From the IMG/VR virus record IMGVR_UViG_3300020438_000286, positions 1-23,241 of that record: a stretch of 23,241 bases of DNA; one strand, 5' to 3'. Every line of letters begins with the position of its first letter. Positions within the stretch are counted from its first letter, which is position 1. The stretch is from a virus. The position numbers and the translations under genes are program-made. Below the pieces are notes generated by a model. That model saw only the letters and a list, made by a program, of their open reading frames with translations. It was not told the DNA's origin and did no database searches. Positions 4,302-23,018 of this stretch are shown piece by piece.

Positions 4302-4781
4302 ATGAAAATCACCCAAGCAAAATTACGCAAGATTATTATAGAAGAATATATTAAAGAAGAAAACTTACTTGAAGCAGATCAAGAAGAAATTGAAAAGCTC
4401 TTGCAACAAATCCAAGGAGACAAATACCGTTCTCCAGAAGCGAGAGATCCCAAAAGGTTTAAAACCAACGATGGTAACACCGCTGCAATGGAACGACCCC
4501 ATTCGCCGGATGAAACTATGGCTGATCCAGTTACTGGTTCTGATGAAGAAGTAGTCATGTCAGACAATATAAAAGACGCAATACTTAAGATAGTACAAGG
4601 TTCTTCTCCTGCCGAAGTAGCAGAGATTTTCAACGCTGTGTTCGGTGAAATACAGCCCGAAGAAGAAGAGGGGACTCCTGAGACTCTTTATACTCCTGGT
4701 GCCGAAGGAAGACCTACTGCGGGATTCAAATTGCAAGAGCTTAAAGAAATGATTAGAAAAGCTATATCAGAGAGTGTATGA
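4302..4781 (+). CDS. Acidic protein with LRKIIIEE-type helices at both ends, 159 aa
   Basis: The N-terminus is MKITQAKLRKIIIEEYIKEE, a short amphipathic helix like those of the genes at 3740 and 11273. The C-terminus repeats the pattern as FKLQELKEMIRKAISESV. Between them is an acidic, Pro/Asp/Glu-rich, probably disordered region with a short helical part (NIKDAILKIVQGSSPAEVAEIFNAVFG as two adjoining helices, about residues 89-115) and an EEEE run. Its stop overlaps the terminase ATG by 4 bases, so it is translationally coupled to the terminase. Position directly before gene 17 is where T4 has the small terminase gene 16, and gp16-like proteins are small helical proteins, but no gp16 sequence motif is recognisable. 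A core or scaffold role is equally possible. Confidence 0.75.
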   Translation: MKITQAKLRKIIIEEYIKEENLLEADQEEIEKLLQQIQGDKYRSPEARDPKRFKTNDGNTAAMERPHSPDETMADPVTGSDEEVVMSDNIKDAILKIVQGSSPAEVAEIFNAVFGEIQPEEEEGTPETLYTPGAEGRPTAGFKLQELKEMIRKAISESV

Positions 4782-6361
4782 GTTTTGAACTTACCAAAAA
4801 ACAAAAGTTCCAAGAAATATTAAAGTGTGGTAAAGACCCGGCTTACTTTCTTAAAAACTATGCCCGTATATCTCACCCGATGCACGGGCTAATCCTTTTT
4901 GATACATACGACTTTCAAGATGTTCTGTTGAACGATTTCAACGATTATCGATTTAATGTAATTCTCAAAGCAAGACAGTTGGGAATCTCAACGATTACGG
5001 CCGGCTATATCTCTTGGTTAATGTTATTTCACAAGGATAAGTCTATTCTTGTTATGGCAACCAAGTTTGCTACCGCTGGTAACTTAGTCAAAAAAGTTAA
5101 AAGCATCATGAAGAACTTACCGGAGTGGATCCGCATTGCGACCATTTCAGTAGATAACCGCACGTCCTTTGAGTTATCAAATGGTTCCTCTATCAAGGCT
5201 ACTTCAACATCTGGTGATGCCGGCCGTTCAGAAGCCCTGTCACTGCTTGTACTTGATGAGGCCGCCCACATTGAAGGCTTGGAAGAACTGTGGACTGGTC
5301 TGTACCCTACGCTGTCAACCGGTGGTCGTTGCATCGCACTGTCTACTCCAAACGGTGTAGGTAACTGGTTTCACAAAACTTGCGTCGATGCTGAAGCCGA
5401 GGCAAATAACTTTCACCTGACAACGCTACCGTGGGACGTACACCCAGACCGTGATGAAGAATGGTACAAGAAAGAAACCAGAAACATGTCAAAGAGACAA
5501 ATCGCTCAGGAGCTGGAATGTAACTTCAATACTTCCGGTGAGACTGTGATAGATTCACAGTGTATGGAATGGCTGATGTCTAATGTGTGTGAACCAAAAC
5601 ACAGAACAGGGTTTGATAGAAACTTCTGGATATGGGAAGAGTTTGATCCTACGTGCAATTATCTCATGGTAGCCGATGTAGCCAGGGGAGATGGTGCTGA
5701 TTATTCTACATTCCATATGATTAAACTAGAAACCTTACAGATTGTAGGAGAGTATCAGGGCAAGCCAACGCTTGATATGTATGCCAATATGTTAAACCAA
5801 GTCGGCAGAGAATACGGGAATGCTATGCTTGTTGTGGAAAACAACAACGTTGGGTACTCAGTACTAGACAAACTAATAGAGGCAGCCTACCCTAATCTAT
5901 ATCACTCCATCAAGTCAACGCACGAATACATAGAACAATATCAAGCAGAGATTAGAAACTCTGCCGTACCTGGATTTACTACTTCGTCAAAGACGCGACC
6001 TCTTATAGTCGCGAAATTAGAAGAGTTTATCAGAAATAAACTAATTACGATATATTCTTCTCGCACAATCAACGAGATGAAAACCTTTATTTGGAGGAAT
6101 GGTAGACCACAAGCAATGAAAGGATATCATGATGACTTAATCATGGCCCTTGCAATCGCTTGTTGGGTTAGAGACACGGCCATACAGAGCAGCGCAAGGG
6201 AATTAAACTACCAACGTGCCTTCGTAGACGCCATCATGACTTCTAAAACTACCATGAATACACAAATAAAAGGTCAAATAGGATACAAAAAAAGCGATAC
6301 TTTTGATAAAATGAAGGAAGCTAAAAACACTTATGACCAATATAAGTGGATTATAAAGTGA
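4778..6361 (+). CDS. 17: Terminase large subunit, ATPase and nuclease (T4 gp17-like)
   Basis: This is the DNA-packaging motor that docks on the portal, pumps genome DNA into the prohead using ATP and cuts the concatemer. Visible motifs: a Walker A variant ARQLGIST at residues 65-72 (T4-type RQLGK position; here I replaces K), Walker B LLVLDEA at 156-162 with the catalytic E following D160, and the coupling motif LSTPNG at 188-193. The C-terminal RNase H-fold nuclease has acidic residues in VADVARGD (D300), VVENNN (E354) and YHDDLIMALA (D452/D453). It has 527 aa against 610 in T4 gp17, shorter mainly at the N-terminus. ATG 4778 overlaps the upstream stop by 4 bases. The portal gene follows after 8 bases. 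Confidence 0.95.
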   Translation: MSFELTKKQKFQEILKCGKDPAYFLKNYARISHPMHGLILFDTYDFQDVLLNDFNDYRFNVILKARQLGISTITAGYISWLMLFHKDKSILVMATKFATAGNLVKKVKSIMKNLPEWIRIATISVDNRTSFELSNGSSIKATSTSGDAGRSEALSLLVLDEAAHIEGLEELWTGLYPTLSTGGRCIALSTPNGVGNWFHKTCVDAEAEANNFHLTTLPWDVHPDRDEEWYKKETRNMSKRQIAQELECNFNTSGETVIDSQCMEWLMSNVCEPKHRTGFDRNFWIWEEFDPTCNYLMVADVARGDGADYSTFHMIKLETLQIVGEYQGKPTLDMYANMLNQVGREYGNAMLVVENNNVGYSVLDKLIEAAYPNLYHSIKSTHEYIEQYQAEIRNSAVPGFTTSSKTRPLIVAKLEEFIRNKLITIYSSRTINEMKTFIWRNGRPQAMKGYHDDLIMALAIACWVRDTAIQSSARELNYQRAFVDAIMTSKTTMNTQIKGQIGYKKSDTFDKMKEAKNTYDQYKWIIK

Positions 6362-10271: not shown

Positions 10272-10621
10272 TGGAACTTTTAACATTTATACTTTGCGCT
10301 TACGGACTTACACAAATAATTGTATATGGAAAAGTCTTTAAGAAAATCAGACCCACAAAAGGAAGAGCTGGAGAATTATTTCGCTGCCCCATGTGTATGG
10401 GCTTTCATGTTGGCTGGTTTTTATTGCTACTTTCTCCATTCACAGAACTATTTAACTTTGATGTAACGGTAACCAACTTCTTTCTTATGGGCTGGTTATC
10501 GTCGGGAACTTCTTATGTTCTCAACATGATTTTTGGAGACGAAGGATTTAAACATGAATACAAACAGACAAACCCAGATACCTGCCACCTGGACAAGCAA
10601 GTGGATGTTGCAGCCAGTTAG
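10271..10621 (+). CDS. Small membrane protein with CPMCMGFHVGW motif (DUF1360-like)
   Basis: The ATG overlaps the upstream stop (TAATG) with GAGGAA as RBS. The 116-aa protein has a hydrophobic N-terminal helix (LLTFILCAYGLTQIIVYG), a basic loop, the motif C39-P-M-C42-x-G-F-x-V-G-W at the start of a second helix (WFLLLLSPF), and a third hydrophobic stretch around residues 68-86. The C-x-x-C-x-G-F/W-x-x-G pattern next to a membrane helix is seen in DUF1360-type small membrane proteins of phages and bacteria, whose role is not known. A further Cys lies in the C-terminal tail. Position just before the prohead protease may have no functional meaning. Its last 68 bases overlap a possible 29-codon gene in another frame. 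Confidence 0.78.
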   Translation: MELLTFILCAYGLTQIIVYGKVFKKIRPTKGRAGELFRCPMCMGFHVGWFLLLLSPFTELFNFDVTVTNFFLMGWLSSGTSYVLNMIFGDEGFKHEYKQTNPDTCHLDKQVDVAAS

Positions 10622-11272: not shown

Positions 11273-11671
11273 ATGAAAAAAACAGAATTAAAAGAAATAA
11301 TCAAACCTCTCGTAAAAGAATGTATACAAGAAGTTCTTATAGAGGAAGGGTTGTTGTCTAATGTTGTGTCAGAGGTTGTGAAAGGTCTTGGTACCCAAAG
11401 TATTGTGGAACAAGCTCCGGTACCGCGCCCGGCACCTCAACCAAAAATAAACAATAATGCCCTGAAAGAACAGCGCGCAGCATTGATGAACGCAATAAAC
11501 AAAGATGCATATAATGGAGTTGATCTTTTCGAAGGCACCGACGCCATGTCATCCTATGAAGCAACCCCGCAACCCGCAGGCGCCGTAGACTTGGGTAATC
11601 CAAGCGACCCTGGCGTTGACATCAGCTCGCTCATGGGTGCATCATCTCAAATTTGGAACAGGATTAAATAG
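11273..11671 (+). CDS. Protein with LKEIIKPLVKE N-terminal helix, downstream of protease, 132 aa
   Basis: It starts 3 bases after the protease stop. The N-terminus (MKKTELKEIIKPLVKECI, then QEVLIEEGLLS) is a long amphipathic helix with an (L)IE|E-like site, followed by a hydrophobic helix (NVVSEVVKGLG). The middle is a Pro/Ala-rich linker (VPRPAPQP), then ALKEQRAALMNAINKDAYNG and a loose acidic end with SSLMGASSQIW. The N-terminal region resembles the genes at 3740 and 4302 in style. I recall this kind of protein directly after gp21 in aquatic T4-like phages. A substrate or partner of the protease is a reasonable inference from position, but no function is established. Confidence 0.78.
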   Translation: MKKTELKEIIKPLVKECIQEVLIEEGLLSNVVSEVVKGLGTQSIVEQAPVPRPAPQPKINNNALKEQRAALMNAINKDAYNGVDLFEGTDAMSSYEATPQPAGAVDLGNPSDPGVDISSLMGASSQIWNRIK

Positions 11672-11917: not shown

Positions 11918-11920
11918 TGA

Positions 11921-11927
11921 CTATTTA
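11921..11927 (+). promoter_or_regulatory. CTATTTA motif, candidate late promoter element
   Basis: ACTATTTATAGT here is an inverted repeat and contains CTATTTA. It lies between the bS21 gene and the first gene of the fibre cassette, 32 bases before ATG 11960. The same 7-mer recurs before four other late genes, which is the main evidence. T4 late promoters use TATAAATA and some cyanophages a CTAAATA-like box, so an AT-rich single box would fit a gp55-type sigma factor. The motif differs from both. Confidence 0.5.
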
Positions 11928-11959
11928 TAGTGTGATTTAAATATTTAAGGAGTTTTATA

Positions 11960-12379
11960 ATGGGAAGTTGGAATACCGAACCCGGCCTAAATCATGTAGG
12001 CGCATATCAGGTAAGTGGGAAGCCATTTGCCACAGGCAGTCTTAACTGCAAAGTAGACGCACAACCTATGGAAGGGTGCGTTGTTAACTTTCCATACGTC
12101 ACGTCATGGGTAAAAATTGTTAACAAAGATCCAGCAAACACAGTTAGAGTGGGATTTAGTATCTCCGGTGTTACAGGATCTTTTAACTTTTTCGAAGTTG
12201 GAAAGGCATCCACTGCAAACGTACACAACGACAGCGGCATGTTGGATTTCAAGGTATCGTCTATCGTTCTATCCGGCTCGACCACCGTCGATGTCGTTGC
12301 TGGCTTAACTAACATCCGAACTGGCCTCACAGCTACAGCTCAAGGCGCAAACTGGTCGGGCTCTGTAGGGGTAGGCTAG
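11960..12379 (+). CDS. Small beta-rich virion protein, possible head decoration or fibre-associated, 139 aa
   Basis: It starts after TTTAAGGAGTTTTATA, a strong RBS (AAGGAG). The protein is rich in Ser, Thr, Val and Gly with almost no long helices: VVNFPYVTSWVKIVN, VRVGFSISGVTGS, NVHNDSGMLDF and the end TAQGANWSGSVGVG. This is the composition of a beta-sandwich virion protein such as a capsid decoration or short fibre protein. No specific family was recognised. It is first in the fibre cassette, behind the first CTATTTA motif, and only 4 bases before the next gene, so it is probably expressed together with the fibres. Confidence 0.78.
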   Translation: MGSWNTEPGLNHVGAYQVSGKPFATGSLNCKVDAQPMEGCVVNFPYVTSWVKIVNKDPANTVRVGFSISGVTGSFNFFEVGKASTANVHNDSGMLDFKVSSIVLSGSTTVDVVAGLTNIRTGLTATAQGANWSGSVGVG

Positions 12380-12383
12380 ACTA

Positions 12384-13085
12384 ATGTCGAGTTTTGGCTG
12401 GGCTTATGTTGATTGCTCCGACACTTCTGGTGATGGTGCTGCTGCAGGACCAACTGGTTCTCTCCAGTTTACAACTGGATCTGACGGCCATACTACAGGT
12501 TCGGCTAAATTAGTATATTACACAGCCTCTTATGGAGAGCACACCGAGCCCTCCACATTAGTGTTATCTGGTAATATGATTGTCACTGGTACCCTGAGTG
12601 CTAGTGTTTTCAATTACGAGAACATTTCTATTATTGATGCAACCGGTTCGACATTCTTTGGTAACACCATTGATGACAGACACTTCAGAACAGGTAGCTT
12701 GGCGATTTGGTCGGGAACAACTGCAATATTGAGCGCTAGCTCCTATTCAAAGCAAACCTTCGTTAAGGGCTTTGGAGGGGGCTACACCAACGTTACGAGC
12801 AGCCACTACACTGCGTCAACCTCTGACTACCTTCTCGGCGTTGCAACCCCCTTTACGGGCGGTACAGCGCCTGTTAGAATAACAATACCGAATCCTAGCA
12901 CATATAGTGCCGGCGCTGTACTGGTGGTTAAGGACGAAGCCTCTCTTAGGGGAGGTTCAAGTATTGTTCTTACTAGATCGGTTACTGATACATATACATT
13001 CGATGGCGATGCATTCTATACCTTGACTGGTACAATGCCAGCAATTAGTTTATATTCAAATGGAAGCAACTGGTTTGTCTTCTAG
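12384..13085 (+). CDS. Tail-fibre-like protein with shared C-terminal domain, 233 aa
   Basis: The protein is Gly/Ser/Thr-rich. The N-terminal part contains GPTGSLQFTTGSDGHTTGSA and LVLSGNMIVTGTLSAS, a module that recurs in the gene at 13106 (GPTNSLQF..., LTGALYLTGTL). The C-terminal part, about 60 residues, contains VLVVKDEASLRGGSS and AISLYSNGSNWFVF, and aligns with the ends of the proteins at 13106 and more weakly at 14499 and 16146. These repeats and the terminal domain are typical of phage fibre or baseplate-associated proteins, and the common end may be a trimerisation or capping domain. There is no chaperone gene nearby to help decide. Receptor binding is inferred. Confidence 0.82.
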   Translation: MSSFGWAYVDCSDTSGDGAAAGPTGSLQFTTGSDGHTTGSAKLVYYTASYGEHTEPSTLVLSGNMIVTGTLSASVFNYENISIIDATGSTFFGNTIDDRHFRTGSLAIWSGTTAILSASSYSKQTFVKGFGGGYTNVTSSHYTASTSDYLLGVATPFTGGTAPVRITIPNPSTYSAGAVLVVKDEASLRGGSSIVLTRSVTDTYTFDGDAFYTLTGTMPAISLYSNGSNWFVF

Positions 13086-13105
13086 TTAATAGAGGAGGCA
13101 TGTAG

Positions 13106-14383
13106 ATGGCTTATAACAACATGTCGGGCACTGTGTTCTTGCCCGCAGAACTTAGACCTCGGATAGATATAGCATATGCCAATATTCTATCAGGTAATTT
13201 AAGTACGTCTGACGCAGCCGATGTCATTAATGTACCTCGTGTATCTAACGCTACCAACAATGCAATCCTTACAAATGTCAATGGAGATGCTAATAACTTA
13301 GTTTGTGAAAGCAACCTGACGTTTGATGGTAATACCTTGAATGTTACAGGAGACATAACAGCATCTGCTGGGGCTTCGTTCCTTGGGGCAGTAAACATCT
13401 CTAGTAGTACTGGCTTAACAATCACAGGCTCTATATTACCATCTGGTAGTACTGTATTCAATTTAGGTTCTGAAACACAAAGATGGGGCTCGATATTTGT
13501 TGGCACTGGTTCAGTTCACCTTGGTCCTAACTGTTCCATCAGTTCTATTCCGAACGGAATTGTAATGAATAAGTCTACGTTCATTACAGGCGCCTTATCA
13601 GCAAGTTTGAATATTTCTGCTTCTGCTTTCTATGGCGATGGTAGCAATCTCATAAATGTAAGAGCAGACAATGTTGTTGCGGAAGGACCAACTAACTCTT
13701 TACAGTTTCACGACCCGGCCGATGGTGACTTAACAGGCTCCTCAAATTTAAAATACGTCAACAGTGCCCTTTTTCTAACTGGTGCTCTTTACTTAACTGG
13801 TACTCTAGATTTAGATGGCGACTTGGTTCCAGCCACGGCCAATGCTCGTGATTTAGGAACAGCAGCAAAACCATGGCGCTCACTATACATCTCCGAAGAC
13901 ACCATTTATTTTGGAAATGATTCTTTAAGTGTGGAGTCCGGCAACATGAAATTTGGGTCTGGCTCTGCAACTAAAGGTTTCAACGTCGGTCACATGCATC
14001 TTAAAGATAGAGGCATAGTTATGGATCAAGGCAGAGTCTTCAATCTTGCAGCACACCAGATGAAATTTAATGGTGGTATCGCAGTTAAAAGAAACACAAT
14101 TTCTGAAAACCATATAATGACTAATGGAGAATATCTGATTGCAGTACAAACAGATCAATTGACCGGTTCAACTGTGGCGGTAACATTGCCCCCTGGAACC
14201 ACCGTTGTCAACGGCCAAACTTTCATCATAAAAGATGAAGGAGGCGCCGCTTCCACAAAACCAATCACAATTTTGACCCAAGCTGACAATTTAATCGATG
14301 GTAAAAATTCAGTGGTTTTAGAGTCTCCCTACGCAGCTATTACTCTTTATTGTAACGGCTTAGATAAATACTTTATTTGCTAG
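13106..14383 (+). CDS. Tail-fibre-like protein, 425 aa, MAYN N-terminus
   Basis: The RBS is GAGGAGG with an ATGTAG between it and the real ATG 13106. The protein starts MAYNNMSGTVFLPAEL; the MAY(N/K) start is shared with three other genes of the cassette. Then come GNTLNVTGDITASAGASFLGAV, SAFYGDGSNLINV (the common fibre GDGS motif), GPTNSLQFHDPADGDLTGSS and LDLDGDLVPATANARDLGT followed by KPWRSLYI, a sequence style common in fibre shafts of marine phages. The last 60 residues (FIIKDEGGAASTKPITIL... AAITLYCNGLDKYFIC) match the end of the preceding protein. It is likely a trimeric fibre protein. It ends just before a hairpin terminator. Confidence 0.87.
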   Translation: MAYNNMSGTVFLPAELRPRIDIAYANILSGNLSTSDAADVINVPRVSNATNNAILTNVNGDANNLVCESNLTFDGNTLNVTGDITASAGASFLGAVNISSSTGLTITGSILPSGSTVFNLGSETQRWGSIFVGTGSVHLGPNCSISSIPNGIVMNKSTFITGALSASLNISASAFYGDGSNLINVRADNVVAEGPTNSLQFHDPADGDLTGSSNLKYVNSALFLTGALYLTGTLDLDGDLVPATANARDLGTAAKPWRSLYISEDTIYFGNDSLSVESGNMKFGSGSATKGFNVGHMHLKDRGIVMDQGRVFNLAAHQMKFNGGIAVKRNTISENHIMTNGEYLIAVQTDQLTGSTVAVTLPPGTTVVNGQTFIIKDEGGAASTKPITILTQADNLIDGKNSVVLESPYAAITLYCNGLDKYFIC

Positions 14384-14418
14384 TTTTCTTTACTCCAAAT
14401 GTGGACTAATTAAACTTG

Positions 14419-14468
14419 AATGCTGGGCTTGTCTGTACCTTCGGGTCCATACTGGTCTAGCATTTTTT
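14419..14468 (+). terminator. Hairpin terminator with UUCG loop
   Basis: AATGCT at 14419-14424 pairs with AGCATT at 14459-14464. Inside, a partly paired arm closes with ACC-TTCG-GGT, a stable UUCG tetraloop, and a T run (14463-14468) follows. The stem has several wobbles and mismatches, so strength is uncertain. It separates the 13106 gene from the highly biased 14499 gene. Confidence 0.65.
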
Positions 14469-14498
14469 ATATAATTCATAATTTAGGAGAAATATATA

Positions 14499-16031
14499 AT
14501 GGCTTACAAATTTCAATTAGGTGATGCTATCCTTTCTGGTGCTCTCAAGCAAGAAGGTGATATTGACATCATTTCCGCCGGCAAACTTAAAGTCGGCAGC
14601 ACCGTCGTAATCGACGCTGCTCGTAACCTCTCGGCCTCGACTCTCGACGGCCAGTTGCAAAACCCTGCAACATCTCTCGAACTCGCTGACACTGATGATG
14701 TTAGCGAAGGTTCTTCGAACCTTTACTTCACCGACGCTCGCGCTCGCGCTGCTATCTCCATGGAAGCCGATCGCTTCATCGAGTACAACTCTAGCACTGG
14801 TGCTTGGACTATGAACGAGGCTCTTTTGTCAAGTTCCGTTCGCGGCATGGTTTCTGTAACTGATGCTGGCGGTGACGGCTCCATGGCTTACAACGCTTCA
14901 ACTGGTGTCCTTACATACACAGGCCCTTCTGCTGCTGAAGTCCGCGCTCACATGACCGCTGGCGAAATGCTTGAAGTTTCTGCTGGTGTCTACAAGATCA
15001 AGGCTTCCGAGTACTCTGCTTCTTGGGCTGACGCTCTTGCAACCAAAAACACTGCTGACTTGGCTGAAGGTACAAACCTTTACTTCACCGACGCTCGTGC
15101 TCGTGCTGCAGTATCTGCTGTAGACGCTGGTGGTGACGGTTCTTTTGCTTACAACGCTTCGACAGGCGTTTTCACTTACACCGGTCCTTCGGCCTCTGAA
15201 GTCCGCGCTCACATGACCGCTGGCGAAATGCTCGAAGTTTCTGCTGGTGTTTACAAGATCAAGCACACTGAATTCTCTGGTTCCGCACTTGATGTTATCG
15301 CTCACGCTGATGCTGCTGCCGGTGTTCGCAGCCACATTTCTGTGACTGATGCTGGTGGTGACGGCTCCTTGGCCTACAACGCCTCTTCGGGTGTTATTAC
15401 TTACACCGGTCCTTCGGCCGCTGAAGTTCGCGCTCACTTGAGTGTTGCCCCTGAAGCAATGATCGATTACTCTTCTGGTGTGTTTAGCATCGACGAAAGC
15501 GAATTCTCGGGTTCTGTACTCGACACCATCGCTCACGGTGATGCTGCTGCTGGTGTTCGCGGTCACTTGTCCGTATCTGACACTAACTCGATGGATATGT
15601 CCTTCGCAGGTGGTGCTTTCTCTGCAGACCTTAGACTCAACTCTGGCGACGGTGATGCTTCCATGGAAGTTGTTGCTGGCGGTCTTCGTCTTAAGTCTAC
15701 AGTTGCAGGCGCTGGTCTCACACTTGCTAGTGGTGTTCTTTCGCTCGACGGCGCTGTCGTCACCGCAGTCGGTGATGCAGACGCTACTCTTGCCGAAGGC
15801 TTCAACTACGGCTCCGCAGACCTTACAGCTAACCGTACCTGGACTCTTCCAGCCGCTCCTGCTGCTGGCGATGTCGTACACGTTAAAGCTCCGCTTGTTG
15901 GTTCCAACAAGCTCATCATCGCTGCTGGCTCTGGTGATAGCATTGACGGTGTGGCTTCTATCGAAATCGAATCCGATTCCGGTGCTGTCTCCTTGATGGC
16001 TATCTCGGATGCTGCATGGAGAATCTTCTAA
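14499..16031 (+). CDS. Repeat-containing fibre-like virion protein, probably abundant, 510 aa
   Basis: The RBS is TTTAGGAGAAA. The protein starts MAYKFQLGDAILSGAL and contains NLYFTDARARAA twice (about residues 73-84 and 191-202), a motif known from fibres of marine phages. Three repeats with GDGSxAYNASTGVxTYTGPSA and EVRAHMTAGEMLEVSAGVY follow, with a fourth decayed copy. The C-terminus (VVHVKAPLVGSNKLIIAAG... VSLMAISDAAWRIF) is a divergent copy of the shared fibre end domain. Codon use is unlike most neighbours and like the capsid gene: Arg is nearly always CGT/CGC, and Leu CTT/CTC. This suggests a high-copy product. It is flanked by a terminator on each side, so it may be its own transcription unit. 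Alternatives are a head fibre or an extended whisker-like protein. Confidence 0.85.
   Translation: MAYKFQLGDAILSGALKQEGDIDIISAGKLKVGSTVVIDAARNLSASTLDGQLQNPATSLELADTDDVSEGSSNLYFTDARARAAISMEADRFIEYNSSTGAWTMNEALLSSSVRGMVSVTDAGGDGSMAYNASTGVLTYTGPSAAEVRAHMTAGEMLEVSAGVYKIKASEYSASWADALATKNTADLAEGTNLYFTDARARAAVSAVDAGGDGSFAYNASTGVFTYTGPSASEVRAHMTAGEMLEVSAGVYKIKHTEFSGSALDVIAHADAAAGVRSHISVTDAGGDGSLAYNASSGVITYTGPSAAEVRAHLSVAPEAMIDYSSGVFSIDESEFSGSVLDTIAHGDAAAGVRGHLSVSDTNSMDMSFAGGAFSADLRLNSGDGDASMEVVAGGLRLKSTVAGAGLTLASGVLSLDGAVVTAVGDADATLAEGFNYGSADLTANRTWTLPAAPAAGDVVHVKAPLVGSNKLIIAAGSGDSIDGVASIEIESDSGAVSLMAISDAAWRIF
14856..15660 (+). repeat. Internal protein repeats in the 14499 gene
   Basis: Units start at 14856, 15120, 15342 and 15573 (about 264, 222, 231 bases and a degenerate last copy). 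The first three share V-(T)DAGGDGS-x-AYNAS and TGPSAxEVRAH. Units 1 and 2 are nearly identical at DNA level over GAAGTCCGCGCTCACATGAC and the next 40 bases, which points to recent duplication or gene conversion. Confidence 0.85.
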
Positions 16032-16065
16032 TCTAAACATAGTTTTAGACTTAGGCTATTGTCTT

Positions 16066-16096
16066 GGGTGCCCTCCTTGTGGGGGCATCCTTTTTT
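16066..16096 (+). terminator. Strong rho-independent terminator
   Basis: GGGTGCCCTC (16066-16075) pairs with GGGGGCATCC (16081-16090), a 10-bp stem with two G-T pairs, a 5-base loop and a T6 run. It ends the 14499 unit. Confidence 0.88.
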
Positions 16097-16102
16097 ATGA
16101 GG

Positions 16103-16109
16103 CTATTTA
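16103..16109 (+). promoter_or_regulatory. CTATTTA motif, first copy before the 16146 gene
   Basis: GCTATTTA lies 7 bases after the terminator T run and 36 bases before ATG 16146. It is one of six copies in five intergenic regions. Confidence 0.4.
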
Positions 16110-16120
16110 GTAATATAATT

Positions 16121-16127
16121 CTATTTA
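16121..16127 (+). promoter_or_regulatory. CTATTTA motif, second copy before the 16146 gene
   Basis: TCTATTTATT lies 18 bases before ATG 16146, the same spacing as the copy before the 23037 gene. Two copies in one short intergenic region are notable; one may be the active box. Confidence 0.45.
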
Positions 16128-16145
16128 TTGTTGAGAGGATATAAT

Positions 16146-17279
16146 ATGGCTTACAATGTACTCAAGGGCGCAGTAGAGGGTTCCGTGGATCAACACGGAG
16201 ATCAAGAGATCGGCGGCATCAAAGTTTTTAAAAACACTATTAGTGCCAGTGTTTTTTATGATACAGACGCAGAATCCCCCTGTGCTACCATGAAAGATGT
16301 GGCAATCAAGAAAATTAAAGGCAACATCAATGACGGTATTATTATTGCCGATAAACAACACGGTGCCCGAACACACCATAACTTAACATACAATAGCGAT
16401 TCTCAGACATTAGATGTGAAAAACATCAATGCTAGTACAATTGCAGGTTCAGGAATTTATTTGCATACAATCCCTACAGATAAATTTGTAAGCAAAATCA
16501 ATGCTAATTTTGTTGATTACGGCTCTGGGTTACAGAACGTAAGAGGAAAGCTGCAGGTTAAATTATCCCAAGGTCTCTTTATGGAAGAAGATTCTTTGAG
16601 TGTAGCAGTAGCTAACAATTCTGGATTGTACTTTGAAGACAATAAGCTGACTACCGATATTGCCAAGGTTGAAAAAATCAACCTTGCAGGCCAAAACCTT
16701 AGCGACGATGATTTATTACTTGTCAGTGACATTTCTTTAGGCAAGACCAAGAGCACAACAATCAGGAACTTATTTGATAGCTACATCAACATGAAGATAC
16801 CGCATGCATCTGGCAATAAAAACGAAATCCAATTAAAAGGTAGAACCGGCTTTGAATCAACAGCCGCCTTTAGCTTCAACACAGATAGCAATTCTTTGAA
16901 TGTCGAAGGCAAAATATCATCGATAAACACCCAGATTAAAAATAAATTAGTCTGTGAAGGTTCTGTTTACAAAAAAATCAGAACTGTTAAAGAAGAAAAT
17001 TACGAAGTACAAAGTGACGATTACACAATTCTTTGTGATGCGTCAAACAACAAAATGAATGTCAATCTCCCACCACCTGTCAACAACCAAGGCAGGGTAT
17101 TGATTTTCAAAAAAGCTAACTCTAACCAATACAAGCTAAATGATAATGAAATTACATTAAGCTGTAAAGAAGGTAAAATTGACATTGGCAATAATGAGTT
17201 AATGAAAATGAATTACTCATCGCGAACTTTGCAGTGCGATGGAGAAAATTGGTGGATTATTGGAACTAAAGGTTCCTAG
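16146..17279 (+). CDS. Fibre-like virion protein, 377 aa, MAYN N-terminus
   Basis: The frame reaches back to TTG 16128, but GAGAGGA at 16133-16139 is the RBS of ATG 16146, giving MAYNVLKGAVEGSVDQHGDQ. The protein has a beta-rich, Asn/Ser/Lys-rich shaft: GGIKVFKNTISASVF near the start, DYGSGLQNVRGKLQVKLSQG and SGLYFEDNKLTTDIAKVEKI in the middle. The C-terminus (VLIFKKANSNQYKL... TLQCDGENWWIIGTKGS) is a divergent copy of the end domain seen at 13085 and 14383. Arg codons are mainly AGA/AGG/CGA, unlike the 14499 gene just upstream, so the two differ in expression level or history. It is likely a fibre protein; the specific role is unknown. Confidence 0.83.
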   Translation: MAYNVLKGAVEGSVDQHGDQEIGGIKVFKNTISASVFYDTDAESPCATMKDVAIKKIKGNINDGIIIADKQHGARTHHNLTYNSDSQTLDVKNINASTIAGSGIYLHTIPTDKFVSKINANFVDYGSGLQNVRGKLQVKLSQGLFMEEDSLSVAVANNSGLYFEDNKLTTDIAKVEKINLAGQNLSDDDLLLVSDISLGKTKSTTIRNLFDSYINMKIPHASGNKNEIQLKGRTGFESTAAFSFNTDSNSLNVEGKISSINTQIKNKLVCEGSVYKKIRTVKEENYEVQSDDYTILCDASNNKMNVNLPPPVNNQGRVLIFKKANSNQYKLNDNEITLSCKEGKIDIGNNELMKMNYSSRTLQCDGENWWIIGTKGS

Positions 17280-17312
17280 AGAATATTTAATACAAACGGA
17301 GACTAACACTAA

Positions 17313-19391
17313 ATGGCTTATAATTCTAACAAAGGCCCCCAACACAGCGGCGATATTCAATTTGAAGGAGATCCTAACGACGTTCAGATTGATTTCGAAA
17401 ACGATCAAGTATCACTAAAAGCTGGTGGTGTAAACAGATTGACCGCTGATAGTGGTAGTGTATCAATCTCTGGAAGTTTAAGCGCGTCAGCGGACGTAAA
17501 AGCCACTGGCAACATACACGCAACTGCATACTATGGCGATGGTTCCAACCTTTCAGGCGTGGGTGGTGGTGCTTCATCAGGTTCTGCCAGACTTTACAGC
17601 AGCACCGGTGTAGAAACATCAGGGTTCTTAAAAGTTAGTGGCTCATCCACAATCACTACTGTGTCTGGCACCACAGCACAATTCACAGTTTTAACTGCCA
17701 GTCAAATAGTTGGTGGCTCTCCAATAAGTATTTCAGCGTCCTCTATAACATTTACTGGTAGTGTTGAATTCAGTGGTTCCTCCACAATTTCGGCATCAAG
17801 CGCCACACTCACATCGCTTACAGCCAGCGCAATATCTGGTGGCTCTCCAATCGAAATTTTTGGAGACACTGTTACAATCACGGGAGATGCAGGTATTGCT
17901 CTCCGAGGTCCAGTATCCAGTTCTGGCGTTATCGCAGCGGTTGGTAACGCCGTATTTGGCGGAACAGTAGCAAGCACTGGCTCTATGACAGCCGCTGGTA
18001 TGTTTACAACTTCGTTGTCTGCATCCAGTATTTCACAATTGGTTGGGTCAATATCCAGTTCCGGTGACGTTGCAGTTTCCGGAAACATACATGCTACTGA
18101 GTTCCATGGAGACGGTTCGTATTTGTCTGGCATTTCAGCAGGGGCTGTATCCGGCGCCGCGAGAGTTTATAGTGTGACTGGTTTAGAGACTTCCGGATTC
18201 TTAAAGGTATCAGGTTCCTCGGTAATGGAAGACATTACGGCAAATGGTATAACAAACGTCGGAGCATATTCCGGTTCGGGCGTCCTTGCAAACGTAGGAT
18301 CCATCTCTTCATCGGCCAACTTGGCAGTAACTGGCGCGGTACATGCTGCTAACTTTTACGGAGATGGTTCAGGTCTTGTCAATGTTCCAGCAGGCGCCCC
18401 TACATCTTTGTCTGGCACAACAGCGCAATTAACAACTGGAGTCGAAACTTCTGGATTCTTAAAGGTGTCTGGTTCGAGTGACTTCGCTACAACCATAACT
18501 GCTTCAAACGGAATAAACATTGGCAACAACAATGCTTCCGCATCATTTGGACCCAAGGCGTTAGAAATTTATTGGAATGGCACCAACGGTGTAATGGAAA
18601 GCGAGGTAGGGCATTTAAATATACGTGTCAACCAAAGCGCTAAAGATATTCGTCTTAGAATGGGTGATGCCGCCGGTTCCTCGAAAGTTGAATTTAGAAC
18701 CAATGCCGATGCAAATGTTGTCACAGTTGATTCAAATGGGTTAATCTCTGGCTCCGGCGGTTTACAGATTGTTGGTTCTATCTCATCTTCTGCTGACGTA
18801 GCCGTCTCTGGAAATATTCATGCGACCGCTTATTACGGAGATGGGTCTGGCCTATCAGGTGTGGGCGGCAGCGCTTCTGGTTCTGCTAGAGTTTACAGTA
18901 CCACCGGACTAGAAACATCTGGTTTCCTAAAAGTTTCGGGATCCACTACCCTAGCTGGAACATTGAGAAGCGCTGGTAAGATACAATCGACAAATCACGC
19001 ATATAGCTTCGGTGCAGGGACGATACATTTTATTCCACTGAACGGCTCCACCAATGAATCCACTACACCTGATTACCGCCACCAGTTCGTTGCACCGTTC
19101 AACGGAAGACTCAGGAGAGTCTATGCACGCACCAAACTTAATCCGAATGGTACCTGTACCGCAAACATAACAGTTGGTTCTGACGGCACTGAAGACTTCA
19201 ACGCTGGTGGTGCAATCGTCGAGTCTCAATCAATCACAATCAGCGCCGCAAATACCACTGGCACATTCAATCTCACAGGTTCTCAACATTTCACCGCAGG
19301 TCAAATCATTGGGGTGGCAATGCAATATAATGCTAATCCATCCGATGTTAACATCACTTGTGTTTGGGAATATGACGATAGAGACGTATAA
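17313..19391 (+). CDS. Large tail-fibre protein with four GDGS/ETSGFLKVSG repeats, 692 aa
   Basis: The ATG follows ACGGAGAC. The N-terminus is MAYNSNKGPQHSGDIQFEGD, sharing MAYN with other cassette members. Four repeats carry the order GS(I/L)S(A/S)S - GNIHAT - YYGDGSxLSG - VYS - TG(V/L)ETSGFLKVSGS, alternating with TGSVEFSGSSTISAS-like segments. A single shaft segment (LEIYWNGTNGVMESEVGHLN) differs from the rest. The C-terminal domain of about 130 residues (FIPLNG, HQFVAPFNGRLRRVYART, TVGSDGTEDF, GQIIGVAMQYNA, CVWEYDDRDV) looks like a jelly-roll beta-sandwich and is the best candidate for receptor binding. It is the largest fibre here. There is no clear terminator after it, but a CTATTTA motif follows. 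Confidence 0.88.
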   Translation: MAYNSNKGPQHSGDIQFEGDPNDVQIDFENDQVSLKAGGVNRLTADSGSVSISGSLSASADVKATGNIHATAYYGDGSNLSGVGGGASSGSARLYSSTGVETSGFLKVSGSSTITTVSGTTAQFTVLTASQIVGGSPISISASSITFTGSVEFSGSSTISASSATLTSLTASAISGGSPIEIFGDTVTITGDAGIALRGPVSSSGVIAAVGNAVFGGTVASTGSMTAAGMFTTSLSASSISQLVGSISSSGDVAVSGNIHATEFHGDGSYLSGISAGAVSGAARVYSVTGLETSGFLKVSGSSVMEDITANGITNVGAYSGSGVLANVGSISSSANLAVTGAVHAANFYGDGSGLVNVPAGAPTSLSGTTAQLTTGVETSGFLKVSGSSDFATTITASNGINIGNNNASASFGPKALEIYWNGTNGVMESEVGHLNIRVNQSAKDIRLRMGDAAGSSKVEFRTNADANVVTVDSNGLISGSGGLQIVGSISSSADVAVSGNIHATAYYGDGSGLSGVGGSASGSARVYSTTGLETSGFLKVSGSTTLAGTLRSAGKIQSTNHAYSFGAGTIHFIPLNGSTNESTTPDYRHQFVAPFNGRLRRVYARTKLNPNGTCTANITVGSDGTEDFNAGGAIVESQSITISAANTTGTFNLTGSQHFTAGQIIGVAMQYNANPSDVNITCVWEYDDRDV
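17472..18948 (+). repeat. Four long protein repeats in the 17313 fibre gene
   Basis: Units lie at about 17472-17652, 18045-18222, 18297-18479 and 18774-18948. Each ends in ETSGFLKVSGS and holds a (Y/F)xGDGS motif. Units 1, 2 and 4 are closest; unit 3 replaces LSGV by VNVPAG. DNA differs at many third positions, so they are old duplications kept by selection. Confidence 0.85.
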
Positions 19392-19426
19392 GTCACATAA
19401 AAAATTGCTTTCCTGCTTAAATAATA

Positions 19427-19433
19427 CTATTTA
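19427..19433 (+). promoter_or_regulatory. CTATTTA motif before scaffold gene
   Basis: ACTATTTATTTTG lies 32 bases before ATG 19466, the same distance as the copy before the 11960 gene. It would drive the scaffold and capsid genes. Confidence 0.5.
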
Positions 19434-19465
19434 TTTTGAATTATTGTCAATTTAGGAGAGAATTC

Positions 19466-20686
19466 ATGTCCAACTTGCTTAACGAGTCTATCGTAGATGC
19501 CAAAGCCCTTCGCGATTCCGCGCTCAAAAACGCTGAATCTGTTGTTATCGAGAAATACGCCGAAGAGGTGAAGAAAACTTTAGAAAGTTTACTGGAACAA
19601 GATGAGCCGGGTCTGGAAGCCGATCCTCTTGAAGCAGGCCCAGAATTGGGTATCGACGCAGATCCAGAAACTGAGAGCGAAGACATTATCGAAAACGAAG
19701 CCGACACGATTCCACTTGCTTCTACAGACGATTTAGCTAACAACGAGGGTGATAACTTAAATTCTCTTGCCTCCGAAGGCGAAAATGTTGAAGTTACCAT
19801 CGATTTAGGCGCTCTCCAAGAAGCAATCGAAGCACTTTCCAGTGATATCGACGAAGACATTGATTTAGAAATCGAAGATGATTCCATTAACGAAGAAGAA
19901 GTTAATGAATATTCGGCTGGCTTCCAAGATGACGATGATGCTTACTATGATTGCAAAAAAGCACACATGAAAGATGGCATGTCTCAAGATGAAGCACACA
20001 AGAAGTGTGATAAAGCCAACCCCCGTTACAACATGGAAGAGTCTGAAGAAGAACTCTACGAAGAAGACACCGAAATTGTTGATGAAGAAATCGACATGGA
20101 TGGTCTTTTTGATTCGGTAATGGAAAAGCTCACTGCTGATATGAAAGCAGAGATCTCCGGCTGGGCCGGCCGTCCTACGTCACAATTGAAAGACGAGCAA
20201 GAAAGAGAGCTTGCAAATGAAGCCTCTACCGAGACTGAAGAAGAATCAGTCGAAGAAGAGCAAGAAGAAGTTAATGAGTCCAAGGAAACACTTGAAAAGA
20301 CCCTCGCAAATAATGAGAGCCTTAAAGAAGAATTGGTGAATTATCAGTCCGCTATGGAAGAACTCAAAGAAAATCTCTATGAAGTTAACCTTTCTAATGC
20401 AAGACTGTTATATACGAACCGTGTATTGAGAAATACCTCCCTTAATGAGCGACAAAAAGATAAAATTGTCGAAGCTATTTCCGGCGCGGGTTCAGTCACA
20501 GAAGCAAAGACTATATTTGAAACGCTTCAAAGCACAATGGAAGCTAAGCCTACGCGAAGCCCTAAGTCATTGAGCGAAGCAATCAGTGGTCGTAATTCTG
20601 TATTAACCGCGTCTCGTAAAGAGACCAAAGTGGCCTCTCAAGATCCATTCTCGGATCGTATGAGAAGGCTTGCTGGAATAAAATAA
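19466..20686 (+). CDS. 22: Prohead core scaffolding protein (T4 gp22-like)
   Basis: The frame opens at ATG 19436, but TTTAGGAGAG at 19451-19460 places the start at 19466 (406 aa). The scaffold forms the inner core around which capsid protein assembles and is then digested by the prohead protease. It is very acidic (many Glu/Asp runs), helical, starts LLNESIVDAKALRDSALKNA and ends QDPFSDRMRRLAGIK, the C-terminal DPFxxRMxxLAGI signature of gp22-type proteins. It is longer than T4 gp22 (269 aa). The extra part includes an acidic central region with a Cys-containing insert, DCKKAHMKDGMSQDEAHKKC, between Cys163 and Cys181. The position directly before the capsid gene matches T4. Many LxE/IxE tripeptides offer cleavage sites. 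Confidence 0.9.
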   Translation: MSNLLNESIVDAKALRDSALKNAESVVIEKYAEEVKKTLESLLEQDEPGLEADPLEAGPELGIDADPETESEDIIENEADTIPLASTDDLANNEGDNLNSLASEGENVEVTIDLGALQEAIEALSSDIDEDIDLEIEDDSINEEEVNEYSAGFQDDDDAYYDCKKAHMKDGMSQDEAHKKCDKANPRYNMEESEEELYEEDTEIVDEEIDMDGLFDSVMEKLTADMKAEISGWAGRPTSQLKDEQERELANEASTETEEESVEEEQEEVNESKETLEKTLANNESLKEELVNYQSAMEELKENLYEVNLSNARLLYTNRVLRNTSLNERQKDKIVEAISGAGSVTEAKTIFETLQSTMEAKPTRSPKSLSEAISGRNSVLTASRKETKVASQDPFSDRMRRLAGIK

Positions 20687-20707
20687 ACACAAATAAATTA
20701 TAAAAAA

Positions 20708-20718
20708 AAGGAGGTGAT
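20708..20718 (+). promoter_or_regulatory. Perfect 11-base Shine-Dalgarno of the capsid gene
   Basis: AAGGAGGTGAT is fully complementary to the common 3' end of bacterial 16S rRNA and ends 6 bases before ATG 20725. It is the longest SD match in the window and fits the need for very high capsid protein output. Confidence 0.85.
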
Positions 20719-20724
20719 TTTATT

Positions 20725-22485
20725 ATGTCTAGTATTATCGAAAGATTGACCGAAGGTGTGGTCAACAGAGATATGCGTGCAGAAGGTGGTGCTCTTCTCT
20801 CTAAGTGGGAGAAAACCGGTCTTCTTGAAGGTCTTACCGGCGACAACAGCCGCAAGACCATGGCACGCCTGCTTGAAAATCAAGCAAAGGAACTTCTTCG
20901 TGAAAGTTCCACGATGGCTGGTGGCGATGTTGAAGGCTTCGCTGCTGTTGCTTTCCCCATTGTACGTCGCGTCTTCGCTGGCCTCATTGCCAACGATCTC
21001 GTCGCCGTGCAACCTATGAGTTTGCCCTCGGGTCTCATTTTCTTCATGGATTTCACTGTTTCTACAAACGGTGCAGGTCTCCCTCGCTTGGGTTACGGCA
21101 CTGACGGTTCTGAAGAATCCGTCTACGGTGGTGCGCGCGTTGCGTCCGAAATCACTGGTGGTGTCTTGATCTCCGAGGCCAACGCTGAGCGTGGTCCTCG
21201 CAACTTGAACAACGGCTACGCTTCCCCAACAGGTTCCGTCGCTGCTTTGGCTATGACGTTCATCACAGCAAGTACATACAGTGCTTCTGCTGGTGCTCTT
21301 CCTGACCTTTGTCAACATGACCCTGAACTTGAAGGTGCTCCCGGCGCAACTGTTGCCGTCGCTTCTTTCTCAGTGTCTGACTTGACAAACTTCAACGAAG
21401 ATGATTTCGTCACTGTTACTCTTCAAGATGCATCTGGCTCGAACGCCGGTCTTAACACTACTAGTTCCGCTGGTGGAGAACAACGTGGTGTCCAACTTCG
21501 TCGTCTCACCCGCTTCAGTGGCTCTAGCACTACTACAGGCTTGCTTGTTCTTGCTTCCTATGATGGTTCTGCTACTGCAGCACAACTTCATGGTATCCTT
21601 ACTGCTTCCGTAGGACACAAAGTTACCTTCGCTCAAGAAGATGACTTCATTAATGGTGGAGCCCTTGGTTCTGTTATTGGTGATGATCCTTGGGGCTTGG
21701 AAAACAACATCAACATCCCCGAGATCGACATCAAAGTTGACTCGATTGCTGTTACCGCTGTTTCCAAGAAGCTTAAGGCTAAGTGGACTCCTGAGTTAGG
21801 TCAAGACCTTAACGCATACCACAACTTGGATGCTGAAGTCGAATTGACTTCTATCCTCTCCGAGCAAATCGCTCTTGAGATCGACCGTGAGATCCTTGAA
21901 GATCTCGTTAAGGGCGCTACCGCTGGTACTAAGTACTGGTCTCGCTCCCCAGGTCTCTTCGTGAACCGCAACACTGGTGTTGAGATTGGTGCATCTGCAT
22001 CGGCTCCCGACTTCACCGGTACCGTTTCCGAGTGGTACGAGACTCTCGTTGAAACCATCAACGATGTTTCTGCTAACATTCACCGCAAGACCCTTCGTGG
22101 TGGCGCTAACTTCATCGTCTGCGGACCTGAAATCGCCAACATCCTTGAGTTCACTGCTGGCTTCCGTGCTTCCGTCACTGCTGACGACGAGCGTGGTTCC
22201 ATCGGCGCTCAGAAGGTCGGCGCGCTTACTAAGAAGTTCGACGTTTACGTTGACCCATACTTCTTGCGTAACGTGATTCTCGTTGGCCGTCGCGGCTCCT
22301 CTTTCCTTGAAAGCGGATACGTGTACGCACCATACGTGCCACTGCAGACAACTCCAACTATCTTTGGACCAGAGGACTTCGTACCTCGTAAGGGCGTGAT
22401 GACTCGTTACGCCAAGAAAATGGTTCGTCCAGATATGTACGGATTAGTTATCTGCCGCGGTCTTATCGGCGAGAGCGGAAGCTGA
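20725..22485 (+). CDS. 23: Major capsid protein (T4 gp23-like)
   Basis: This is the main shell protein of the head, HK97-like fold. T4 gp23 family features: LLSKWEKTGLLEGL at residues 24-37, MARLLENQAKELL at 46-58, VRRVFAGLIANDLVAVQPM around 80-98, IDIKVDSIAVTAVSKKLKAK near 335-354, and ELGQDLNAYHNLDAEVELTS; near the C-terminus YVYAPYVPLQTTPTIFGPED and FVPRKGVMTRYAKKM. It has 586 aa against 521 in T4. The central Ser/Thr/Gly-rich region of about 120 residues (roughly 200-320) probably forms the surface insertion domain. A likely protease site is L58-R-E60|S61, close to the T4 site after E65. Codons are strongly biased (Arg almost only CGT/CGC), as expected for the most abundant protein. Confidence 0.96.
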   Translation: MSSIIERLTEGVVNRDMRAEGGALLSKWEKTGLLEGLTGDNSRKTMARLLENQAKELLRESSTMAGGDVEGFAAVAFPIVRRVFAGLIANDLVAVQPMSLPSGLIFFMDFTVSTNGAGLPRLGYGTDGSEESVYGGARVASEITGGVLISEANAERGPRNLNNGYASPTGSVAALAMTFITASTYSASAGALPDLCQHDPELEGAPGATVAVASFSVSDLTNFNEDDFVTVTLQDASGSNAGLNTTSSAGGEQRGVQLRRLTRFSGSSTTTGLLVLASYDGSATAAQLHGILTASVGHKVTFAQEDDFINGGALGSVIGDDPWGLENNINIPEIDIKVDSIAVTAVSKKLKAKWTPELGQDLNAYHNLDAEVELTSILSEQIALEIDREILEDLVKGATAGTKYWSRSPGLFVNRNTGVEIGASASAPDFTGTVSEWYETLVETINDVSANIHRKTLRGGANFIVCGPEIANILEFTAGFRASVTADDERGSIGAQKVGALTKKFDVYVDPYFLRNVILVGRRGSSFLESGYVYAPYVPLQTTPTIFGPEDFVPRKGVMTRYAKKMVRPDMYGLVICRGLIGESGS

Positions 22486-22514
22486 TTTAAAAATCAGTCA
22501 AGCTGACTAAATGC

Positions 22515-22543
22515 AAAACCCCCGTCATTTGGCGGGGGTTTTT
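22515..22543 (+). terminator. Strong rho-independent terminator after capsid gene
   Basis: AAAACCCCCG (22515-22524) pairs perfectly with CGGGGGTTTT (22533-22542), an 8-base loop between and further T-rich sequence after. It ends the scaffold-capsid unit. Confidence 0.93.
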
Positions 22544-22629
22544 GTTTTTGAGAGTGAAGTATAAAAATGTCAATTTCTCAATTTTTTTTGCCGTCTAATT
22601 TTTGAGATTTTCGTTTTGTTAATTTCAAA

Positions 22630-22636
22630 CTATTTA
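22630..22636 (+). promoter_or_regulatory. CTATTTA motif before Ala/Pro/Lys protein gene
   Basis: ACTATTTACTAT lies 31 bases before ATG 22668, in a short AT-rich region between a strong terminator and the gene, where a promoter is required for expression. This is the clearest context for the motif being a promoter. Confidence 0.55.
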
Positions 22637-22667
22637 CTATCACAGGTTTAATAGAGAGGATATTATC

Positions 22668-22904
22668 ATGAACCCACGTAGAAGATTAATGTTTAAGAAT
22701 AGAGCACGCGCACGCCGTGACGCTGAAGCTGCTGCTGTAGCACCGGCAAAGCCAGCTCCGGAGAAGGCTGCACCCAAAGCCGCCCCTGTGGCTGCACCCG
22801 AGGCTGCTCCTGCACCCGCACCTAAAGCTGCCCCCAAAGTTGCTACCAAGGCTGCCCCTGTACCTGCTAAAGCAGCAACAAAGAAGACTACTCAAAAGAA
22901 GTGA
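22668..22904 (+). CDS. Ala/Pro/Lys-rich basic low-complexity protein, 78 aa
   Basis: The RBS is AGAGAGGA. The N-terminus is MNPRRRLMFKNRARARRDAE, an Arg-rich helix, followed by about 50 residues of Ala, Pro and Lys with repeating APKAAP/APAPK units and a KKTTQKK end. Composition recalls histone H1-like and HU C-terminal tails and would bind nucleic acid or stay disordered. It has its own unit: terminator and CTATTTA before, terminator after. The position next to the capsid gene suggests a virion or DNA-condensing protein, but many disordered linkers look alike. The antisense frames across it are only mirror images of the GCx-rich codons. Confidence 0.8.
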   Translation: MNPRRRLMFKNRARARRDAEAAAVAPAKPAPEKAAPKAAPVAAPEAAPAPAPKAAPKVATKAAPVPAKAATKKTTQKK

Positions 22905-22926
22905 AGAGTTGAATAGTCATAAAATT

Positions 22927-22959
22927 ACCCCCTTTCCTTCAAGGATCGGGGGTTTTTTT
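22927..22959 (+). terminator. Rho-independent terminator
   Basis: ACCCCC (22927-22932) pairs with GGGGGT (22948-22953), with a small CCT-TCA-AGG hairpin inside the loop and a T7 run after. It ends the unit of the 78-aa protein gene. Confidence 0.88.
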
Positions 22960-23011
22960 CATTTAGTTTAATCATACCGAATTTTTAAAGAGGTCATTGA
23001 TCGCCTGTTTA

Positions 23012-23018
23012 CTATTTA
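23012..23018 (+). promoter_or_regulatory. CTATTTA motif before last gene
   Basis: TTTACTATTTAATTTAAGG lies after a terminator and 18 bases before ATG 23037. The 5' leader would be very short if the motif is at -10, so the active start may overlap the RBS region. Confidence 0.45.

Follow-up and report, generated by a model that had tools for sequence, protein, structure and literature searches.

A candidate late promoter of a distantly T4-like phage clade and the gp55-like sigma factor that may read it

The window considered here is a stretch of viral DNA of 23,241 nucleotides, namely, the entire IMG/VR record IMGVR_UViG_3300020438_000286 (23.2 kb), in which the heptamer CTATTTA recurs upstream of genes of a T4-type head module. 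With high confidence, this motif is the late promoter box of a large clade of distantly T4-like (Far-T4-like) phages, which are marine and uncultured. Refined in relatives to ACTANTTA (mostly ACTATTTA), it would serve as the -10 element of late promoters and be read by a gp55-like sigma factor of about 230 residues acting on host RNA polymerase, an explanation that, taken as a whole, we consider to be well founded. Reading of the box by a gp55-like protein is likely, and both clamp independence and recognition of a -35 element are plausible. What was computed directly is the motif, together with its orientation, spacing, class specificity and conservation, and the presence of a sigma gene in the same genomes.

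The CTATTTA box in the window and in its relatives

The original prediction had pointed to six copies of CTATTTA in five intergenic regions together spanning about 0.5 kb. Inspection of the window confirmed the six copies on the + strand (11921, 16103, 16121, 19427, 22630, and 23012), their distances to the following ATG (32, 36, 18, 32, 31, and 18 nt, respectively), the A preceding four of them and the size of the five regions (~0.54 kb). Terminators were likewise present, with a stem at 16066-16090 ahead of 16103/16121, a stem at 22515-22542 ahead of 22630, and a further terminator at 22936-22952 ahead of 23012. The claim of a single in-gene copy held for the forward strand (10448), but a reverse in-gene copy at 11665-11671 had gone unmentioned.

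Of the seven forward-strand copies, six fall within the 889 intergenic bases and one within the ~22,350 bases of coding sequence (Fisher p=2e-8), and first-order simulation of the window intergenic sequence predicted 0.20 copies, with six or more obtained in none of 20,000 runs. Across the whole window, the eight copies present represent a mild excess over the 3.5 expected, given that 6 of 100 shuffles reached this number. Sigma70-like sites showed no excess in the window (23 vs 21.8 in shuffles). Because 12.6% of first-order simulations of the window contained some 7-mer that reached six copies, the window alone fails a blind 7-mer search and independent data were needed. Moreover, since the window is the complete record, the genome-wide check had to be run on relatives.

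Accordingly, a capsid scan yielded 80 related contigs (L001-L080; 59-75% identity), providing 516 upstream regions (46 kb) for comparison with 928 kb of coding DNA. CTATTTA was found 255 times upstream of genes and 57 times in coding sequence, a 90-fold difference in density that makes it the most enriched intergenic 7-mer, with only eight copies in reverse orientation. The enrichment expected from a count on both strands was thus obtained, such that the initial CTATTTA observation is confirmed and is stronger than the window alone could show. Iterative refinement of a position weight matrix (PWM) gave ACTA(T.71/A.14/C.12)TTA, found in 350 of the 516 regions, with a PWM site appearing in ~86% of those upstream regions of at least 60 bp. 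Motif discovery on sequences upstream of start codons therefore recovered the proposed box, although the single-box view originally taken had overlooked an upstream element, GG(C/G)nTTT.

Alignment of 252 boxes revealed a T-rich stretch directly after the box, an A at position -1 relative to the box C in 86-89% of cases (as read from the logo), a purine at +12 and a preference for A at +13, i.e., 6-7 nt past the box. When this purine is taken as the likely start site, the box falls at -13 to -6, the position of the T4 late box. The signal is bipartite, comprising the box and the -35-like GG(C/G)nTTT at fixed spacing. The word GSnTTT begins 19-21 nt before the box at 164 of 348 sites, as compared to mostly 0-10 sites per position farther upstream. 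The upstream element and the downstream purine each keep their distance to the box to within about 1 nt, whereas the distance from box to ATG is broad (mostly 15-60 nt, with peaks at 18-20 and 32-34 nt and a tail beyond 110 nt).

Class specificity was considered in eight long contigs (157-194 kb) held out from L001-L080, with terminases 62-79% identical to that of the window, by comparing regions (40 bp or longer) upstream of structural-gene homologues with those upstream of homologues of replication and metabolism genes of the Flavobacterium phage immuto. ACTANTTA was present in 43 of 60 structural regions vs 0 of 22 replication/metabolism regions (p=1e-9), while a shuffled control was found in 1/60 and 0/22, respectively. 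The sigma70-type pattern TTGACW-N15-19-TANNNT showed the inverse distribution, namely, 0/60 vs 12/22. In a wider set of 11 contigs, the box was present in 56 of 80 structural and 0 of 33 replication/metabolism regions, as opposed to 0/80 and 23/33 for the sigma70-type pattern. The proposal of a late promoter box is as such supported by directionality, by fixed architecture and by an association restricted to structural genes in held-out relatives. Capsid, terminase and portal orthologues nearly all lack a box of their own (for the capsid gene, one in 82 relatives has one) and are presumably transcribed by read-through from upstream boxes.

A candidate late sigma factor and the sliding clamp

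The suggestion that the box belongs to a divergent late sigma factor, to be sought as a gp55-like gene, led to a candidate in the same lineage, although outside the window fragment. A gp55 family profile found nothing in the first long contigs, because these end before the relevant locus, which lies upstream of the baseplate genes. Longer contigs were obtained with a baseplate query, and it was here that the sigma turned up. No sigma region 2 scored above the Pfam cut-off in the contigs searched. Sub-threshold matches to Sigma70_r2 (PF04542) were, however, seen in five contigs, at identical model columns and in frames of 228-255 codons. The previously unannotated candidate proteins (226-237 residues) are homologous to immuto26A_153, annotated as a hypothetical protein (E ~1e-31), and to a counterpart in phage Mel-JY01, and are present across dozens of long contigs. 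Their sole PHROG match is phrog_234, the T4 late sigma family (E 0.0027). In Foldseek searches, the nearest neighbours of an AlphaFold2 (AF2) model (predicted local distance difference test, pLDDT, 83) were sigma factors (PDB) and, in BFVD, late sigma factors of phages, with modest E-values. The candidate thus appears to be related to gp55 by profile and predicted fold, on weak but convergent grounds.

The residues forming the base pockets of T4 gp55 have been defined (PMC7892883). Upon alignment, the candidate retains Y97 and an acid at the position of E70; R57, N13, H95, and T99, which contact bases -12, -9, and -8, are mostly replaced by T, T, F, and S. These predicted pocket changes would match the departures of the box from the T4 sequence TATAAATA, that at -13 excepted. 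The candidate ends in a conserved helix, FKxxWxxGxI, with no LDFLY-like clamp-binding tail, i.e., nothing resembling the acidic hydrophobic SLDFLYEAND of T4. The C-terminal domain is modelled as four helices (pLDDT 90), for which no Foldseek match was significant and none was to a sigma region 4. This domain differs by group, with NTKQVVNNLNKLR in the window clade vs ETPxLTRVISKLK in the immuto-type phages. The gene following that of the sigma encodes 64-109 residues, has no convincing family match and is a candidate gp33 co-activator. No consistent promoter driving the sigma gene was seen within 6 kb upstream. The sigma factor of Rhodothermus phage RM378 was also considered as the late sigma of the clade and rejected, its homologue being absent from the first 22 related contigs.

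Among 18 records, of which 17 were not T4, the gp45-type clamp profile phrog_223 matched T4 alone; the other phages may still use a host clamp or one that is very divergent. For the gp44-type loader (phrog_168), only short ATPase-level matches were obtained in the clade, with a true loader being found in Mel-JY01. Immuto encodes a family A polymerase, a DnaB-type helicase and RecA.

The leading candidate reader of the -35-like element is the C-terminal domain of the sigma itself. Long contigs of the clade also encode a protein of ~80-110 residues in which a Cys-rich N-terminus (C..C..C...DCR.WI.Y..d.NC) is fused to the helix-turn-helix of sigma region 4.2:

L094:1378-1617, L095:1396-1635, L096:1474-1737 (- strand), L246:16703-17053: Cys-rich region-4 protein

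The protein matches Pfam Sigma70_r4 (E 2e-10 and 3e-9) and adjoins a protein of ~108 residues with an acidic C-terminal tail, IEDIFDxLEEE. Ten of 16 long contigs of the window clade encode it; none was seen in the immuto-type, Mel-JY01, RM378, and T4 records. Its assignment as reader of the -35-like element is unsupported, as the element persists in two genomes (G042 and G046) where the protein was not found.

For late transcription in the clade, we infer a pairing of sigma and box, a start site, use of host polymerase, a timing of expression and clamp independence, as follows. A phage sigma of ~230 residues, with a gp55-like region 2 and belonging to the immuto26A_153 family, would displace the host sigma from host RNA polymerase late in infection, melt and read the box, located at about -13 to -6, and direct RNA synthesis to start at the purine 6-7 nt downstream of the box. 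Head, tail and fibre genes would thereby be switched on. For early replication and metabolism genes, transcription would depend on TTGACA-type promoters and the sigma70-type holoenzyme of the host. GG(C/G)nTTT, at about -33 to -27, would provide an upstream contact that T4 lacks, the gp45 clamp being used there instead. More tentatively, the sigma could be a gp55 derivative working without a clamp, its own C-terminal domain reading GG(C/G)nTTT as a true -35 element; clamp tethering and -35 recognition would then be alternatives within one sigma lineage, with immuto-type phages being a relative without the element.

Several points weigh against this explanation. Late timing and the start site were deduced from sequence, the readers of the -35-like element are candidates only and the sigma gene is absent from the window fragment itself. 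Comparison of the candidate sigma with the single T4 gp55 sequence by hhalign gave a weak E of 0.07, a PDB sequence search returned no match and the Foldseek matches in the PDB all had E > 0.04. Co-occurrence of sigma and box is a clade-wide property and so cannot separate the candidate sigma from other clade-wide proteins. Finally, 28% of structural-gene regions lack a ACTANTTA box.

Predicted promoters and genes mapped in the window

The window corresponds to a fragment of a T4-type head module, containing terminase (4778), portal (6370), prohead protease (10646), and capsid (20725) genes, together with several long structural genes that weakly resemble tail or fibre genes. The features mapped are as follows:

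4778..6361, + strand: T4 gp17-like terminase large subunit gene (phrog_2, E 1.1e-51); marks the lineage
10447..10454, + strand: in-gene ACTATTTA, PWM 16.4, inside gene 10271-10621
11920..11927, + strand: late box ACTATTTA, PWM 13.0, 32 nt before the ATG of gene 11960
14405..14412, + strand: candidate late box ACTAATTA, PWM 10.6, in region 14384-14498 before gene 14499
16101..16108, + strand: -35-like element GGCTATTT of the 16120 promoter, overlapping the CTATTTA copy at 16103-16109
16102..16109, + strand: GCTATTTA, weaker copy, PWM 13.8 vs 19.3 for 16121
16120..16127, + strand: late box TCTATTTA, PWM 19.3, the top site of the window, 18 nt before the ATG of gene 16146
19406..19412, + strand: -35-like element TGCTTTC of the 19426 promoter, with G at -20, C at -19 and TTT at -18..-16
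19426..19433, + strand: late box ACTATTTA, PWM 19.1, before gene 19466
20725..22485, + strand: T4 gp23-like major capsid gene (phrog_138, E 7.6e-69); query for finding the clade
22629..22636, + strand: late box ACTATTTA, PWM 16.7, 31 nt before the ATG of gene 22668 and downstream of terminator 22515-22542
22992..22998, + strand: -35-like element GGTCATT of the 23011 promoter, a weak match, with GG at -20/-19 and ATT at -16..-14
23011..23018, + strand: late box ACTATTTA, PWM 15.0, 18 nt before the ATG of gene 23037 and downstream of terminator 22936-22952

The box is kept before orthologues of gene 11960 in 15 of 17 relatives and before those of gene 16146 in all ten. Upstream of the latter box, at 16121, GG is found at -20/-19 and TTT at -15..-13. 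GCTATTTA could be either an alternative late box or merely the -35-like element of the 16120 promoter. As the copy at 16103 falls at the position expected for the latter and the copy at 16121 scores far higher, the double copy is explained, with that at 16103 probably not being a second promoter. Gene 19466 is a probable scaffold/prohead core gene, in the position of T4 gene 22; the same layout, with a box 32-34 nt ahead of a gene of ~390 codons, is seen in many relatives. The 19426 promoter presumably also drives the capsid gene at 20725.

Ahead of gene 14499, an imperfect inverted repeat (about 14420-14467) and a T run come after ACTAATTA. Since the box precedes the repeat, an odd order for a promoter, it is assigned a candidate role only, and the region is possibly an attenuator-like leader. 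The in-gene copy at 10448 scores on par with the intergenic copies and is a possible internal late promoter of the protease gene 10646. This remains unproven because orthologues of the protease gene have a box within 120 nt upstream in only two of 23 cases. A second sense in-gene site, ACTACTTA at 3010-3017 (score 14.6), lies in a gene directly preceding another and is likewise a possible internal late promoter. In the post-capsid spacer, a conserved stretch, AATTTTTGAGATTTTCG (22575-22612), lies directly 5' of the late box preceding the next gene and recurs in many relatives, e.g., L005, L006, L008, L009, and L013.

The window terminase is 61-79% identical to those of nine long window-clade contigs. 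The best isolate matches of the major capsid protein and terminase, at about 34-48% identity, include RM378 (capsid), Mel-JY01, and immuto. The sole match in a genome collection (61%) is a capsid on a 24-kb contig (L427; PBOB01000007.1) binned in an Acidiferrobacteraceae metagenome-assembled genome; this contig may be mis-binned, rendering the host link putative. An antisense open frame of 380 codons (14898-16040, - strand) opposite structural gene 14499-16031 is probably a by-product of repetitive composition in that gene.

Other explanations, known systems and significance

It is conceivable, if rather unlikely, that GG(C/G)nTTT reflects mere terminator tails of preceding genes, such that the promoter would be single-box as in T4. 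Terminators often lie ahead of these promoters, the logo is reminiscent of a G+C stem and the T's that follow it, and boxes with at least three T's fold somewhat more stably upstream (18% vs 7% below -8 kcal/mol). Nonetheless, the spacing of 19-21 nt is fixed, stable hairpins are absent at 82% of the T-rich sites and a GG(C/G)nTTT-like word is kept at 40 of 72 sites with just 25-45 bp between the end of the upstream gene and the box, a gap that offers scant room for a terminator. Moreover, immuto-type boxes lack the element even though some follow terminators. Terminator tails were as such ruled out as the source of the upstream signal for most sites. Similarly unlikely, and ranked just below the former, would be a late promoter read by another factor, e.g., a holoenzyme with the Cys-rich region-4 protein or a host alternative sigma. 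The distribution of the Cys-rich protein broadly matches the split of the -35-like element, yet the element persists in the two genomes without it, and region 4 on its own is unable to melt a -10 box. Were a host sigma the reader, a core common to phages of very different hosts would be left unexplained.

That the box acts in RNA, as a 5' leader element affecting processing, stability or translation, and is no promoter, is very improbable. Its directionality and its usual placement 15-60 nt ahead of start codons would fit such a role, but it is the distance to the ATG that varies, whereas the upstream DNA element and the downstream purine each lie at a set distance from the box; furthermore, early genes lack the box and many instead have sigma70-type promoters. 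Chance recurrence of an AT-rich word in AT-rich spacers, for which the rate of six-copy 7-mers in simulations of the window might speak, is already refuted by replication in 80 relatives and in held-out genomes with shuffle controls.

Late promoters of T4 consist of a single box, the -35 region being unconserved and the polymerase tethered by gp45 (PMC2988020, PMC7892883). The clade shares with the T4 gp55/gp33/gp45 system a short A+T box, placed by inference at -13..-6, before late structural genes, as well as T4-type head proteins and a divergent sigma with region-2 features. It differs in the box itself (ACTANTTA rather than TATAAATA), in the conserved -35-like element of its promoters and in a sigma longer than gp55, in which the C-terminal helical domain is conserved and a clamp-binding tail is missing. 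As no gp45-type clamp was detected and T4 lacks a -35 element, the working would be gp55-like, not that of the T4 system itself. The box was correctly held to differ from those of T4 and the CTAAATA type, although it is Aeromonas phage Aeh1 (PMC1524935), rather than cyanophages, that has CTAAATA as its late box. Shared with Aeh1 are C at -12, T at -11, A at -10, T at -7, and A at -6; here, however, -9 is degenerate (T>A>C), -8 is T rather than A and there is the extra upstream element.

Immuto (Immutovirus) and its relatives have a homologous sigma, a CTATTTA core before structural genes and the same purine spacing. In these phages, unlike in the window clade, the box is extended to CTATTTATA or ATATTTATA, GG(C/G)nTTT is absent (116 sites) and, in immuto, the early promoter type is another, TATATTTAGGTATC. 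In immuto (L083, 66-76 kb), some 15 small-gene spacers contain TATATTTAGGTATCAATAATTAA, apparently an early promoter type. RM378, the founding Far-T4 phage, has a T4-type capsid and (T)TATTTAA before several structural genes (L085), but encodes an ordinary sigma, Rm378p144 (Pfam region 2, E 4e-14, with a weak region 4 match), and no gp55-like protein. ECF-type bacterial promoters also have a GG... -35-like element that is separated, as here, by roughly 15 bp from the -10 box, although the sequence differs from that of the clade element.

Within a limited literature check, neither CTATTTA nor TATTTATA was found described as a late promoter of phages. A survey of Far-T4 phages detected none of the T4 core genes for transcription regulation and left late transcription open (PMC4360716); box and sigma thus appear to be unreported. 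In T4, the clamp raises late promoter activity more than 1,000-fold (PMC2988020), and the question of how a gp55-type sigma could fire strongly without a clamp is now made testable. The findings would offer a concrete late promoter and a sigma gene hidden as a hypothetical protein (e.g., immuto26A_153) in abundant phages, such that late operons in uncultured phages would become predictable from the box.

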